A stretch of 64,000 bases of DNA from Erythrobacteraceae bacterium E2-1 Yellow Sea (GTDB lineage Bacteria > Pseudomonadota > Alphaproteobacteria > Sphingomonadales > Sphingomonadaceae). The stretch spans positions 372,001 to 436,000 of the forward strand of contig JADCLP010000001.1 in assembly GCA_014983025.1 (NCBI GenBank), in the 5' to 3' direction. The position numbers were made by a program, and so were the translations under genes. Of the stretch, positions 60,243 through 64,000 are shown one piece after another (positions within the stretch are counted from its first letter, which is position 1; each line of letters starts with the position of its first letter). The notes below the pieces were generated by a model. The model ran no database searches, had not been told where the DNA came from, and saw nothing but the letters and a program-made list of their open reading frames with translations.

Positions 60243-61460
<1,218 letters not shown>

Positions 61461-61710
61461 TTTTAGCGGCGATTGACTTCACAAAATCGGTTAATTCAGC
61501 ATAGCCTAGAGGCGGCACCGCAAAATTGCGGTGGGCCGTTGACTTATCCACTCTCCTCCACAGCTGATCTGCGGAAAAGTGGAAAACTCGATCTTGTCAG
61601 ACTTGAACGACTCGCTCTTCAGGCGCAGTCTTTGTGTGTCGGAAGGGAAAGAAACCTCTCCACAAATACAGGCTCAAGGGTCTGAATTTGCTGAGAATTT
61701 CATGAACATC
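61461..61710. other. First part of the 757-nt argG-rlpA gap, little recognised
   Basis: The first 250 nt have one stem (CACCGCA 61516-61522 with TGCGGTG 61527-61533, extended by GGC/GCC) and two TTGACT hexamers (61473-61478, 61539-61544), neither with a good -10 at 17 nt. A TTATCCACT at 61544-61552 resembles a DnaA box but is single. No ORF is convincing. Confidence 0.5.
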
Positions 61711-61717
61711 CGATACG

Positions 61718-61837
61718 GTGGATACTGTCCACGCGGTCTTTGAGACCGGGCATGCAGAAGGTTTCGACCAGAAGCAAGTGCGGTTGTTTGAGGAGAACGC
61801 GATTGCTGATCTACCGTTAAGGCCGGACATCCGGTGA
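61718..61837 (+). CDS. Possible 39-codon ORF (speculative)
   Basis: The frame from GTG 61718 reads DTVHAVFETGHAEGF and ends LPLRPDIR at a TGA. No ribosome site precedes it and a stop lies five codons upstream. It ends in a GTGA overlap with the next small frame, the usual sign of coupling. It lies across hairpins of the candidate RNA, so the absence of stops may be chance. Confidence 0.2.
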   Translation: MDTVHAVFETGHAEGFDQKQVRLFEENAIADLPLRPDIR

Positions 61838-62010
61838 ACGATTGTGGAAAGAAAAAGCTTCGGCTGGATCTGGACGCGTTAGATCGGGAACCATCAAAGG
61901 ATGATCGGTCACGGTACCGCTGGAAAGCAGGTACGGCATGGAAGGACTTCGGTCCAGAAAAGTCGAAGCCGCTGGAAGACGGAACCGGATGCCGGTGCGA
62001 GCGCCGGTGA
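61834..62010 (+). CDS. Possible 58-codon ORF (speculative)
   Basis: The frame from GTG 61834 begins NDCGKKKLRLDLDALDRE, is highly charged, and ends GCRCERR. Arginine codons are mostly CGG and third-position GC is about 58%, lower than I would expect for genes here that favour CGC. This argues against coding. It overlaps the preceding small frame by GTGA. Confidence 0.2.
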   Translation: MNDCGKKKLRLDLDALDREPSKDDRSRYRWKAGTAWKDFGPEKSKPLEDGTGCRCERR

Positions 62011-62100
62011 AGAACCTCCCAATCCGTTGGGAGATGACACATCGGGCGCCAAGCGCTTCTCATCGGTTCGCCTGACGAGAAGACCACGCGCTGGTGAGAG

Positions 62101-62131
62101 TGGGGTCGACAGCTTGCTGTCGGCCCCATTT
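62101..62131 (+). terminator. Terminator-like stem at the end of the structured region
   Basis: A 12-bp stem (62101-62112 with 62117-62128, one G-U pair) has the loop CTTG and is followed by TTTGCATTTG. It lies 90 nt before rlpA and would end a transcript that starts in the argG-rlpA gap. Confidence 0.7.
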
Positions 62132-62217
62132 GCATTTGCGCCATGCCGGTTTCTTTCCCGGATGAGCGGCCTCTACCGCAATTGCCCCTATTTATCCCTT
62201 TCCCGTATAAGCCCTGC

Positions 62218-62736
62218 ATGGACAGGAGCATGCACCTGCGCCCGGTCAGGCTTTCAGCCGCCGCGCTGATGATCGCCACGCTTGGCGCATCAGCGTCATT
62301 CGCTGGCCTGCCTGCCGAGGCGGTAGAGGGCGATTTCATATCCGGTTTTGACCATTTGGCGCGGCCCGCCCTGCCATCTGAGGCGGAGGAAGGCGCGGTC
62401 GACATTTCCGCGATAGAGCCGCCCATCCAGCCCGCCACGCAAACTCTTGGCAGCGGGATGGCATCCTTTTACGGGCGCCGTTTTGCCGGGCGCCCCACCG
62501 CCAGTGGTGAGGCATTTGACCCTACCCAGTTGACCGCTGCGCATCGCACCCTGCCCTTTGGCAGCCTGGTCCGCGTTACCAACCCGCGCAATGGCCGCTC
62601 TGTCGTGGTCCGCATCAATGACCGCGGGCCGTTCCATGGCAGACGCGTGATTGACCTGAGCCGCGCCGCGGCAGAGGAAATCGGCATCGTGCAATCAGGC
62701 CATGGCAGGGTGGAGCTGGAACTGCTCGAGGATTGA
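62218..62736 (+). CDS. rlpA: Septal ring lytic transglycosylase / RlpA family lipoprotein-like protein
   Basis: RlpA binds or cuts denuded glycan strands at the division septum. The 172-residue protein has a signal peptide (about 1-30, no clear lipobox) and the double-psi barrel: GMASFYGRRFAGRPTASGE near 81-99, LTAAHRTLPFGSLVRVTN near 105-122 and VVRINDRGPFHGRRVIDLS near 129-147, with the catalytic-type HxD arrangement. It has no SPOR domain, so it is the short form. The start (62218 or 62230) is uncertain. Confidence 0.88.
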   Translation: MDRSMHLRPVRLSAAALMIATLGASASFAGLPAEAVEGDFISGFDHLARPALPSEAEEGAVDISAIEPPIQPATQTLGSGMASFYGRRFAGRPTASGEAFDPTQLTAAHRTLPFGSLVRVTNPRNGRSVVVRINDRGPFHGRRVIDLSRAAAEEIGIVQSGHGRVELELLED

Positions 62737-62766
62737 GCGCCCCAGCCCAGCCCCAGCCCCGCATGA

Positions 62767-63216
62767 TCAATCGTTCAACTGGCCGCGGATCGCCCCTTCC
62801 GGAAATTCGGCGGTGTGGACATTGACGTAATATTTCGCCTTGTTCTTGGCGATTTTCTTCAACAGCGCCGGATCAACATCCACGCACACATCATCACCTT
62901 CATCGCCCATCAGCTGCAGCGTCACCACCGGCGGGCCATTTTTGCCCACGGCCCCTTCATGCAGATGCGCGGCGGTCACTTCATCCAGCCCATCAACCTC
63001 CAGCATATAGCACATGCGCCCGGCTTCCAGGTCCAGTTCGGCAGAGAAATCGCCTGCCGCATCATCGCCTGCACCCTTGCTCACTTCCTGTTCGCCAAAC
63101 AGGCTGGTGCCGATGTAATCATTATTATCCTGCGCCATTGCGGGCATCACGCTGCCTGCAAAACCCGCCACCAAACCGCACGCCACAACTGTTGCAAAAC
63201 CAACGCGCAATCTCAT
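62767..63216 (-). CDS. CHRD domain-containing secreted protein
   Basis: The 149-residue protein has a signal peptide (about 1-29, ending AMAQD) and one CHRD domain: EVTAAHLHEGAVGKNGPPVVTL near 77-98 and KAKYYVNVHTAEFPEGAIRGQL near 126-147. Four CHRD repeats make up chordin in animals; the bacterial function is unknown. ATG 63216 follows GGAGAG. It is convergent with rlpA. Confidence 0.88.
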   Translation of the reverse strand: MRLRVGFATVVACGLVAGFAGSVMPAMAQDNNDYIGTSLFGEQEVSKGAGDDAAGDFSAELDLEAGRMCYMLEVDGLDEVTAAHLHEGAVGKNGPPVVTLQLMGDEGDDVCVDVDPALLKKIAKNKAKYYVNVHTAEFPEGAIRGQLND

Positions 63217-63303
63217 CTTTGCTCTCCTGCGGGCCGAACATGGCCCAGGCTGCGATTTACGCCTGTTGCGTGAGTCGGAGAAGCAGGATTCGCACATGGC
63301 CCG

Positions 63304-64000
63304 CTATGATGGCGCGAGAGCGGATTCCAGCGCCGCGTCCAGCGCCTCTTCACTGGTGATCAGCCACCATTCGGGCAGGTCCGCCTCAAACGCCTCGATC
63401 TGCAATTCCTCGATAAAGCCGGTGGTATCGCCCAGCTGATAGGGGGTCTGCACACCACGCGGCCGCGCATCCCACATGCGGTTGAGCCGGTTGCCAAACC
63501 ACTGGCAATCCGCCTGCGTCAGCGCGTGCTCCGGCCCATTGCACAGCCCCCCGCATTGAGGGCACGGGTCGGGTATTGGTGTTGAAGAAGTCCTACCCGA
63601 TGGAACACATGGAACAGGGTTATGATCGGGATTTTCAGATGGGCAATCCGCTCGTACTTCGACAGGCTCAGCATGAGCGGATTTATGTGCACACCCCCGC
63701 TCACCTTGAGCCTGTTCCCCTTCCCGCTTACCCTGAGCCTGTCCCCCTTCCCGCTCACCCTGAGCCTGTCCCCCTTCCCGCTCACCCTGAGCCTGTCGAA
63801 GGGTAGGAACAGAGTCCAGTTCCTCCCCCCGTTGCAGGGCCTCGATCTGGTCATCCAGCGCGGCCAGCGCGCCCGCCACATCGCCACGCTCGGCCAGTCT
63901 GTCGAGCCGCGCCAGATGCGCGAGCAACAGCCTGTCGGAATAGCGGCGCCGCACCGCCACCTCCTCCCCATGATAGAACACCGCCTCCTCCCACCCGTTC
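63304..64000 (-). CDS. Partial protein of unknown function, with REP-derived insertion
   Basis: The reading frame runs from 63304 to the window edge and continues beyond it (the edge codons read NGWEEAV before FYHGEEVAVRRRYSDRLLLAHLARLDRLAE). An N-terminal part like small-terminase or helix-turn-helix proteins is followed by a linker of four 9-residue repeats (QAQGEREGG-type) and a cysteine-bearing PCPQCGGLCNGPEH segment, ending DAALESALAPS. The linker is DNA of an inserted REP array plus a 30-nt repeat (63588-63803) translated in frame. Not recognised beyond that. Confidence 0.7.
   Translation of the reverse strand, partial: NGWEEAVFYHGEEVAVRRRYSDRLLLAHLARLDRLAERGDVAGALAALDDQIEALQRGEELDSVPTLRQAQGEREGGQAQGEREGGQAQGKREGEQAQGERGCAHKSAHAEPVEVRADCPSENPDHNPVPCVPSGRTSSTPIPDPCPQCGGLCNGPEHALTQADCQWFGNRLNRMWDARPRGVQTPYQLGDTTGFIEELQIEAFEADLPEWWLITSEEALDAALESALAPS
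63588..63617 (-). repeat. 30-nt dispersed repeat, copy 2
   Basis: On the minus strand this matches 4141-4170 at 28 of 30 positions, with the same 9-bp direct repeat core TGTTCCATG-TGTTCCATC. It lies inside the coding frame of the last gene, beside the REP array. Confidence 0.8.
63657..63803. repeat. REP pair flanking a 27-bp tandem array
   Basis: CTTCGACAGGCTCAG (63657-63671) is the exact inverse of CTGAGCCTGTCGAAG (63787-63801). Between them, and including the second, lie four copies of a 27-bp unit with period marks at 63699, 63726, 63753 and 63780. The unit is derived from the REP half CACCCTGAGCCTG. Each unit is nine codons in the minus-strand frame. Confidence 0.9.

Follow-up and report, generated by a model that had tools for sequence, protein, structure and literature searches.

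What lies between argG and the rlpA-family gene downstream of it in this alphaproteobacterial DNA (the window, a stretch of 64,000 nucleotides)? A preliminary description of the window had seen no standard gene there and proposed an independent, undescribed long structured RNA at 61711-62131. Re-inspection likewise found the gap without any standard gene. The length given earlier for the gap, 757 nt, stands if rlpA starts at the ATG at 62218, but the first rlpA ATG (62143) reduces it to 682 nt. The 5′ boundary had been placed wrongly: conservation begins at about 61524 and the predicted transcript at about 61638, and both the promoter and the first ~70 nt of the RNA had been overlooked. The start of the RNA is estimated from spacing only, at 6-8 nt after the −10 box, and its end is set at the terminal hairpin. 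Beyond rlpA, the minus strand at 62767-63297 encodes a 176-amino-acid, secreted-looking protein without an NCBIfam match, relatives of which occur in 13 of 61 compared loci (the window's own two loci counted). Further on, a run of near-identical, REP-like CCCGCTCACCCTGAGCCTGTC units lies at 63650-63815 within a predicted minus-strand open reading frame, adjoined by a palindrome-like GACAGGCTCAG/CTGAGCCTGTC.

Features of the argG–rlpA interval and its flanks, in window coordinates
Feature	Position	Strand	Details
argG, upstream neighbour	60243..61460	+	TIGR00032 and NF001770 above cut-off
Upstream regulatory DNA, DnaA-box-like array	61524..61602	+	TTATCCAC 61544-61551; second TCCAC 61557-61561; inverted GTGGAAAA 61579-61586
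Predicted promoter core	61603..61631	+	−35 TTGAAC 61603-61608, 17-nt spacer, −10 CAGTCT 61626-61631
GACTC (= GANTC, CcrM methylation site) in promoter spacer	61609..61613	+	GANTC in 68/82 copies
Predicted ncRNA, ~495 nt	~61638..62131	+	covariation, GU:AC asymmetry, fold z-score, no Rfam match
Long-arm domain	61716..61816	+	helices 61716-61723/61809-61816, 61732-61741/61792-61801, 61744-61755/61774-61785; UUCG hairpin 61760-61769
Variable-interior domain	61821..61910	+	closing helix 61821-61825/61906-61910; helices 13-15 of 30-row structure
Third domain with UUCG hairpin 61944-61955	61911..61988	+	closed near 61913-61915/61984-61986
3′ junction	61990..62097	+	61991-61999/62087-62095, 62001-62009/62040-62049; hairpins 62016-62033 and 62056-62082
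Terminal GC-rich hairpin and weak U-tract	62098..62131	+	paired in 80-82/82 rows at every pair
rlpA-family gene, downstream neighbour	62143..62736	+	TIGR00413 above cut-off

To assess the structure we examined 97 loci, in 85 of which both ends were recognised by motif. From these, L032 and L036 were removed and L024 and L008 were dropped as identical copies, by which two genomes were left out; with the window added, the main alignment comprises 82 rows. Because rows were picked partly by the 5′ box (up to three substitutions) and the terminal hairpin, the conservation of these two motifs is partly built in. Covariation was scored by a G-test with average-product correction and compared with null alignments simulated along the same tree. 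In the 82 rows the five highest-scoring column pairs beat all 20 tree nulls, and with 100 nulls three of the five were surpassed by none, one by a single null and one by two. All five fall in nested helices; lower down the list, helix pairs are mixed with non-pairing columns. When helices were slid through 17 registers, 13 of the 15 named helices scored highest in the true one (S1:S4 narrowly, 28.0 versus 26.5), with hairpin S1:S2 second and the 5′ box 'stem' fifth. The preliminary description had itself treated stems that do not covary as grounds for abandoning its reading; across the 82 aligned copies the nested helices do covary.

A separate alignment of 30 close rows was scored with its RNAalifold structure, which derives from the same rows: 88.8% of cells are paired, 68 of 144 pairs have changed on both sides, and the covariation score is 0.262, against 0.152 ± 0.004 across 500 shuffles, with slid registers giving 0.075 or less. 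When these 30 genus-level rows are scored by themselves, the tree null is exceeded by no individual pair (best E ~1). The helices contain 978 G-U but 170 A-C combinations, an asymmetry that identifies plus as the transcribed strand.

The stretch 61700-62140 folds at −181 kcal/mol on the plus strand (z = −4.98), which none of 100 dinucleotide shuffles equalled; the minus strand of the same stretch has z = −3.80. Five perfect, non-overlapping hairpin stems of at least 5 bp are present, compared with an average of 1.95 ± 1.29 after dinucleotide shuffling, where 14 of 300 shuffled sequences had as many as five. The UUCG-type tetraloops are also there, at three positions (loop 61763-61766 and, read from the letters, CUUCGG at 61858-61863 and 61947-61952). 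A terminator-like stem does close the hairpin series, but with 14 pairs (62098-62111 with 62118-62131) rather than 12. The figure of at least ten hairpins was, by our own reading, an overcount: local hairpins in this stretch number about seven or eight in the consensus, and further stems are arms of long-range helices.

Support is spread over the domains listed in the table. In the long-arm domain, column pair 199-296 reaches G 82.9 with 0 of 100 nulls better; pairs 201-294, 198-297 and 220-277 also rank high and are surpassed in 34, 80 and 67 of 100 nulls, respectively. Helix Pe of the variable-interior domain comes first of 17 registers. Pair 430-437 of the third domain attains G 87.4, again with 0 of 100 nulls better, and is a standard pair in 75% of rows. 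The 3′ junction contributes pairs 547-573 and 548-572, surpassed by one and two of 100 nulls, and pair 545-575, which no null of 100 betters, yet whose two columns form standard pairs in just 59% of rows. Four similar GC-rich segments (S1-S4) between 61991 and 62095 permit two mutually exclusive pairings, S1:S4 with S2:S3 or S1:S2 with S3:S4, and both show compensatory changes, most clearly S2:S3, where column pair 492-531 is U-A in 61 and C-G in 15 of 81. Since S3:S4 ranks first in register beside S2:S3, it is possible that the 3′ junction acts as a switch between the two pairings. Neither pairing takes in the terminal hairpin, which is probably a terminator; most copies cap it with a GNRA tetraloop, the window with CUUG. 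A scan of the element for T-tract terminators found none, the U-tract being weak.

Composition of the RNA was examined over 113 copies. CUUCGG occurs 231 times against 20 expected and CGGAA 425 times against 175 (2.4 times the shuffled frequency), and the copies read as hairpins with stable loops joined by CGGAA-rich linkers. GGA is mildly enriched (2015 versus 1641 ± 35 in dinucleotide shuffles) and GGAG is depleted (291 versus 487 expected, 0.60 of the dinucleotide expectation); to judge from these letters, the RNA seems to avoid ribosome-binding motifs. In the same copies CTCC is depleted to 0.48 of the dinucleotide expectation and GGAA is enriched.

We then asked whether the RNA belongs to a known family. 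Rfam, which includes the OLE, GOLLD and ROOL families, was searched with cmscan (Rfam 15) over window positions 60500-63500; the best score within the element was 19.4 bits, against a gathering threshold of 70, and there was no match at E ≤ 10 above 19.4 bits. Nothing comes near threshold. RNase P RNA was rejected as a candidate, the RF00010 match (311.5 bits) lying on another contig (G000:C29:93984-94386). Six distant loci yielded two Rfam matches, both below threshold and both outside the RNA copies. Among sub-threshold matches, PrrB_RsmZ (24.6 bits, E 0.032) fell at L387:1911-2047, upstream of and outside the RNA copy, and BjrC68 fell outside the copy at L337. Among the matches listed in open-access PMC, there was no description of such an RNA in sphingomonads. 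By word search, the main text of two recent genome-wide ncRNA surveys does not mention Erythrobacter, and one names Sphingomonas only for an odc1 motif. Covariation, wide conservation (below) and the lack of an Rfam match thus support the proposal of an independent, undescribed long structured ncRNA, and we are nearly certain that this is a real, new and widely conserved structured RNA gene.

How might such a gene be expressed? Immediately upstream of the predicted RNA start, the aligned copies share a promoter-like frame, TTG-N20-CAnnnT, which played no part in choosing them: TTG is present in 81 of 82, CAnnnT in all 82 and CAnYYT in 76, and the frame is 29 nt long in 80 copies and 30 nt in two. 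All 11 loci dropped from the alignment for an unrecognised end motif have TTG-N20-CAnnnT as well. A hexamer scan tuned to E. coli-type promoters found none in the element, the −10 of which begins with CA rather than TA, unlike the E. coli-type hexamer. GANTC falls in the promoter interval in 68 of 82 copies and is absent from it in 14, compared with 0-8 of 82 in other 29-column intervals and at most 29 of 82 for other palindromic five-letter patterns in the promoter interval; these rows are related copies, not independent events. Outside the alignment, GANTC occurs within the frame in all 13 genomes available (the 11 loci with unrecognised ends and the two genomes dropped as duplicates). Across the window the site is under-represented, with 82 occurrences (1.28 per kb) against 241 expected from base composition, and CTNAG is as rare (85). 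Its place in the spacer varies by lineage, early as GACTC or GAATC or late as GATTC, which indicates that evolution has retained the site but not its exact place. We conclude that the GANTC promoter is very probably under selection.

GANTC is the methylation site of CcrM, and GcrA is reported (PMC8116508) to prefer promoters with methylated GANTC. According to PMC7987155, the GcrA site is a palindrome, and shifting it moderately should have little effect. The gcrA gene is present in 37 of 38 genomes, carriers and non-carriers of the element alike, the sole miss being a genome that is 84% complete.

Upstream of the promoter lies an array of boxes, direct and inverted, at fixed spacing. The second TCCAC sits 10 bp downstream of TTATCCAC. 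Of the 82 aligned copies, themselves picked partly by this box, 62 have TTATCCAC letter for letter; it occurs once in the 64-kb window and not at all in 400 kb sampled from a relative. The boxes have high sequence information but do not covary (sum score 3.3, fifth among 17 registers), which fits DNA signals; an RNA stem between TTATCCAC and its inverted copy was rejected because the two vary independently. Copies from other genera carry TTATCCACA, which we take to be the DnaA box; DnaA-like boxes in the clade mostly end in C or T, not the classical A. MraZ, considered as a binder of a GTGGA-N5-GTGGA repeat, was rejected, since MraZ (PF02381) is found in none of three genomes.

An array of this kind raises the question of whether the element is a replication origin. 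We rejected this by hand inspection of parS, which marks the origin region: of 22 genomes, 14 could be worked out, and in these 0.29-0.41 of the chromosome separates parS from the element. Two of the other eight have no site, two have scattered sites, and the sites of four fell outside the matches listed. No TTATCCACA cluster was found within ~60 kb of parS in three genomes. GC skew over 20 sampled stretches of one genome was noisy, with a sign change near, not at, the element. One genome of the same genus (G031) has 47 parS-consensus matches with at most one mismatch scattered over its contig 1, where the other 21 genomes have 0-3; five exact parS sites lie at 482-487 kb in it.

The element is widespread in one family. 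A nucleotide search found it in 32 of 61 genomes (our own included), all of the same genus, and in none of 24 from other families; with a relative's copy as query, matches extended to 73 of 249 family genomes and 32 of 96 genera. Over the 30-row genus set it is colinear across ~620 bp. A covariance model of the 3′ domain (R1) matched 125 of the family's 397 genomes, from 33 of the 96 genera sampled, at E ≤ 1e-7 (hand count), once per genome, and the preliminary description's worry that the gap might be conserved in close strains alone is thereby answered. Carriers among the matches listed in a pattern scan include Erythrobacter, Qipengyuania, Altererythrobacter, Croceicoccus, Porphyrobacter, Tsuneonella and kin. 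The terminal-hairpin pattern picked out at least 80 loci; of the 80 listed, 78 carry the 3′ domain at 68 bits or more, two of these 78 being cut by the locus end. The other two, L133 and L187, lie outside the clade (a Myxococcota MAG contig and a Pseudoclavibacter) and score below 30 bits with the covariance model. Plasmids searched gave no match to the element, and one virus contig fits the terminator pattern with no covariance-model match there.

Within this clade the surroundings are nearly constant: argG is upstream in 98 of 101 loci (a set in which our own genome and two others are present twice), and rlpA follows on the same strand in 97 of those 98. From 40 genomes without a nucleotide match, one per genus, we inspected the 12 whose argG is most similar. 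Divergent copies are present in three (L243, L245 and L248); in eight, argG and rlpA are near each other but the element is missing, and one (L244) has neither the element nor rlpA within reach. In an argG tree with rough bootstrap support, a clade of 106 rows consists of 96 carriers and 10 non-carriers, with nine changes in all. The RNA is therefore dispensable in those ten genomes or has moved; as the gene can sit elsewhere, we speak of absence from the site, not of loss.

That the gene does sit elsewhere is evident in more distant genera, where conservation reaches further still by promoter and terminal hairpin. We fetched 16 weak covariance-model loci (E 1e-6 to 1e-3) and two strong ones. 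By the 5′ box array and terminal hairpin, nine of the 16 are distant copies (genera g98, g97, g117, g74 and g111). Six (L340-L343, L345 and L346) have no box array, lie in or at the ends of open reading frames and are read as chance matches; L339 (G295) was assigned to neither group. Because some weak matches read as chance, the tally of 172 of 397 family genomes at weak E is not a count of carriers. GANTC is present in the promoter region of all 11 distant copies (nine weak and two strong), which were not chosen for it and two of which are near-identical.

A pattern joining the box to TTG-N3-4-GACTC occurs in 86 of the order's 396 genomes (84 of 313 from the family and two of 83 from other families; hand count), against six of 396 for a backward-pattern control; it misses copies with GAATC or GATTC, such as that of G137. 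In 16 of 20 fetched pattern loci a terminal hairpin of the same kind follows within 800 nt downstream of the promoter. No such hairpin was found upstream or on the opposite strand of any of the 20, nor in any of 300 random pieces. Among the four loci that lack it, G098 has a hairpin of the same form in other letters. These 20 loci add nothing to the GANTC count, having been chosen by GACTC. A −10 of the form xAnnnT, which was no selection criterion, lies at a spacer of 16-18 in 27 of the 29 testable copies among the 20 and the 11, two being without a −35 match. Neighbours differ by genus, with a helicase-like gene in g98 and an EVE-like open reading frame in g97 (names from our own reading of the frames), and the estimated RNA length is 260-770 nt. 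That this promoter, followed by a terminal hairpin of the same kind, recurs at different loci in different genera argues that the element is an independent unit.

On this basis we consider it likely that the element is a free-standing, structured ncRNA gene of ~0.5 kb with its own promoter, timed by DnaA and GcrA-CcrM and acting in trans through its conserved fold. Transcription would run on the plus strand from the predicted promoter to the terminal hairpin. DnaA and methylation-dependent GcrA would fix the cell-cycle phase in which it takes place; the GANTC site, the reported preference of GcrA and the DnaA-box-like repeats together make timed transcription the likeliest form of control, and the RNA is probably cell-cycle timed. 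Whatever its target, the RNA would most likely bind through its 3′ junction and terminal hairpin, both strongly conserved, with the middle arms kept mainly in shape. A more far-reaching version, which we offer tentatively and would put at somewhat under an even chance, is of a Sphingomonadaceae family-wide RNA whose promoter joins DnaA boxes to the CcrM/GcrA methylation switch, such that passage of the replication fork turns the gene on; the RNA would then be a clocked structural component, perhaps with two pairings in its 3′ junction, and a cell-cycle RNA of a kind not yet described.

Other readings must be weighed against this one. An ornate RNA of the OLE, GOLLD or ROOL sort, self-assembling or serving as a protein scaffold and timed only incidentally, seems unlikely to us: the size, the multi-arm long-range structure and the combination of GNRA and UUCG loops would suit it, but the element is without an Rfam match and its GANTC constraint points to timed expression, for which that reading has no need. 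Less probable again is a cis-acting element, which could belong to rlpA as a long leader or attenuator, or to argG as a structured 3′ UTR. The near-constant neighbours and the alternative 3′ pairings, which could form a switch, speak for it. Against it, other genera have the gene beside other genes with the same promoter and terminal hairpin, the argG–rlpA pair persists without the element in eight of the 12 genomes inspected, and the terminal hairpin lies outside both alternative pairings. The CsrB/RsmZ family consists of hairpin arrays with GGA motifs and a terminator, and the preliminary description had pointed to GGA triplets in loops; a sponge of that type would titrate a CsrA-like protein through them. 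Hairpins with GGA(A)-rich linkers recall such an RNA, but the enrichment of GGA is mild, GGAG is depleted and neither the window's element nor the six distant copies hold a CsrB/RsmZ match; CsrA (PF02599) was found in none of 29 genomes, carriers included, while the E. coli, B. subtilis and T. maritima controls matched. A CsrA sponge is refuted in the genomes tested and, taken generally, very improbable.

We give slightly less credence to a DNA element, whether a replication origin or a DnaA-titrating locus such as datA. The regularly spaced boxes and the TTATCCACA boxes of other genera are what it would predict, but the ~500 nt downstream of them covary as RNA helices with G-U far exceeding A-C, the promoter hexamers are conserved and the distance from parS is large. 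The chance that the locus is a protein-coding gene, or that its conservation is a spurious effect of lying beside argG, is negligible. Minus-strand open stretches are long (median longest 110-130 codons versus 74-76 in shuffles), but only 605 of 3822 gap runs in the 82-row alignment have a length divisible by three, and base changes are compensatory.

The free-standing RNA gene that we favour can be approached experimentally. To our knowledge, large structured bacterial RNAs are few, and the regulation and partner of many are unknown. Here the promoter is readable, with GANTC in a near-constant −35/−10 frame beside DnaA-box-like repeats, and so predicts both the timing of the RNA and the regulators to remove. 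Deletion looks feasible, given that the gene is single-copy at E ≤ 1e-7 and absent from the site in some members of the clade. Cell-cycle ncRNAs of alphaproteobacteria are represented by few cases among the literature matches listed.

The RNA described here differs from CsrB/RsmZ in that CsrA was found in none of the 29 genomes tested and that constraint falls on long-range helices. With OLE, GOLLD and ROOL, which form homo-oligomers according to PMC12286853, it has in common that these are long, highly structured bacterial RNAs; it differs in having no Rfam match and a cell-cycle-type promoter. Its promoter resembles GcrA/CcrM-controlled promoters, as portrayed in PMC7987155 and PMC8116508, in carrying GANTC and in the shifts of its position, and differs in that the target of the predicted control is an ncRNA gene. 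EcpR1 of Sinorhizobium meliloti, a stress-induced trans-sRNA reported to modulate cell cycle regulation (PMC4414408), is likewise an alphaproteobacterial RNA tied to the cell cycle; it is set apart by its induction under stress and its rhizobial host. CcnA of Caulobacter crescentus, according to PMC8959179, is a cell-cycle-regulated ncRNA tied to CtrA and GcrA; it is located within the replication origin, with CtrA as its presumed activator. The two share their setting, as cell-cycle ncRNAs of alphaproteobacteria with a link to GcrA, if our reading of the promoter is right; set against that description, the sphingomonad RNA stands apart by its position far from parS, its GANTC promoter and its multi-domain fold of ~500 nt.
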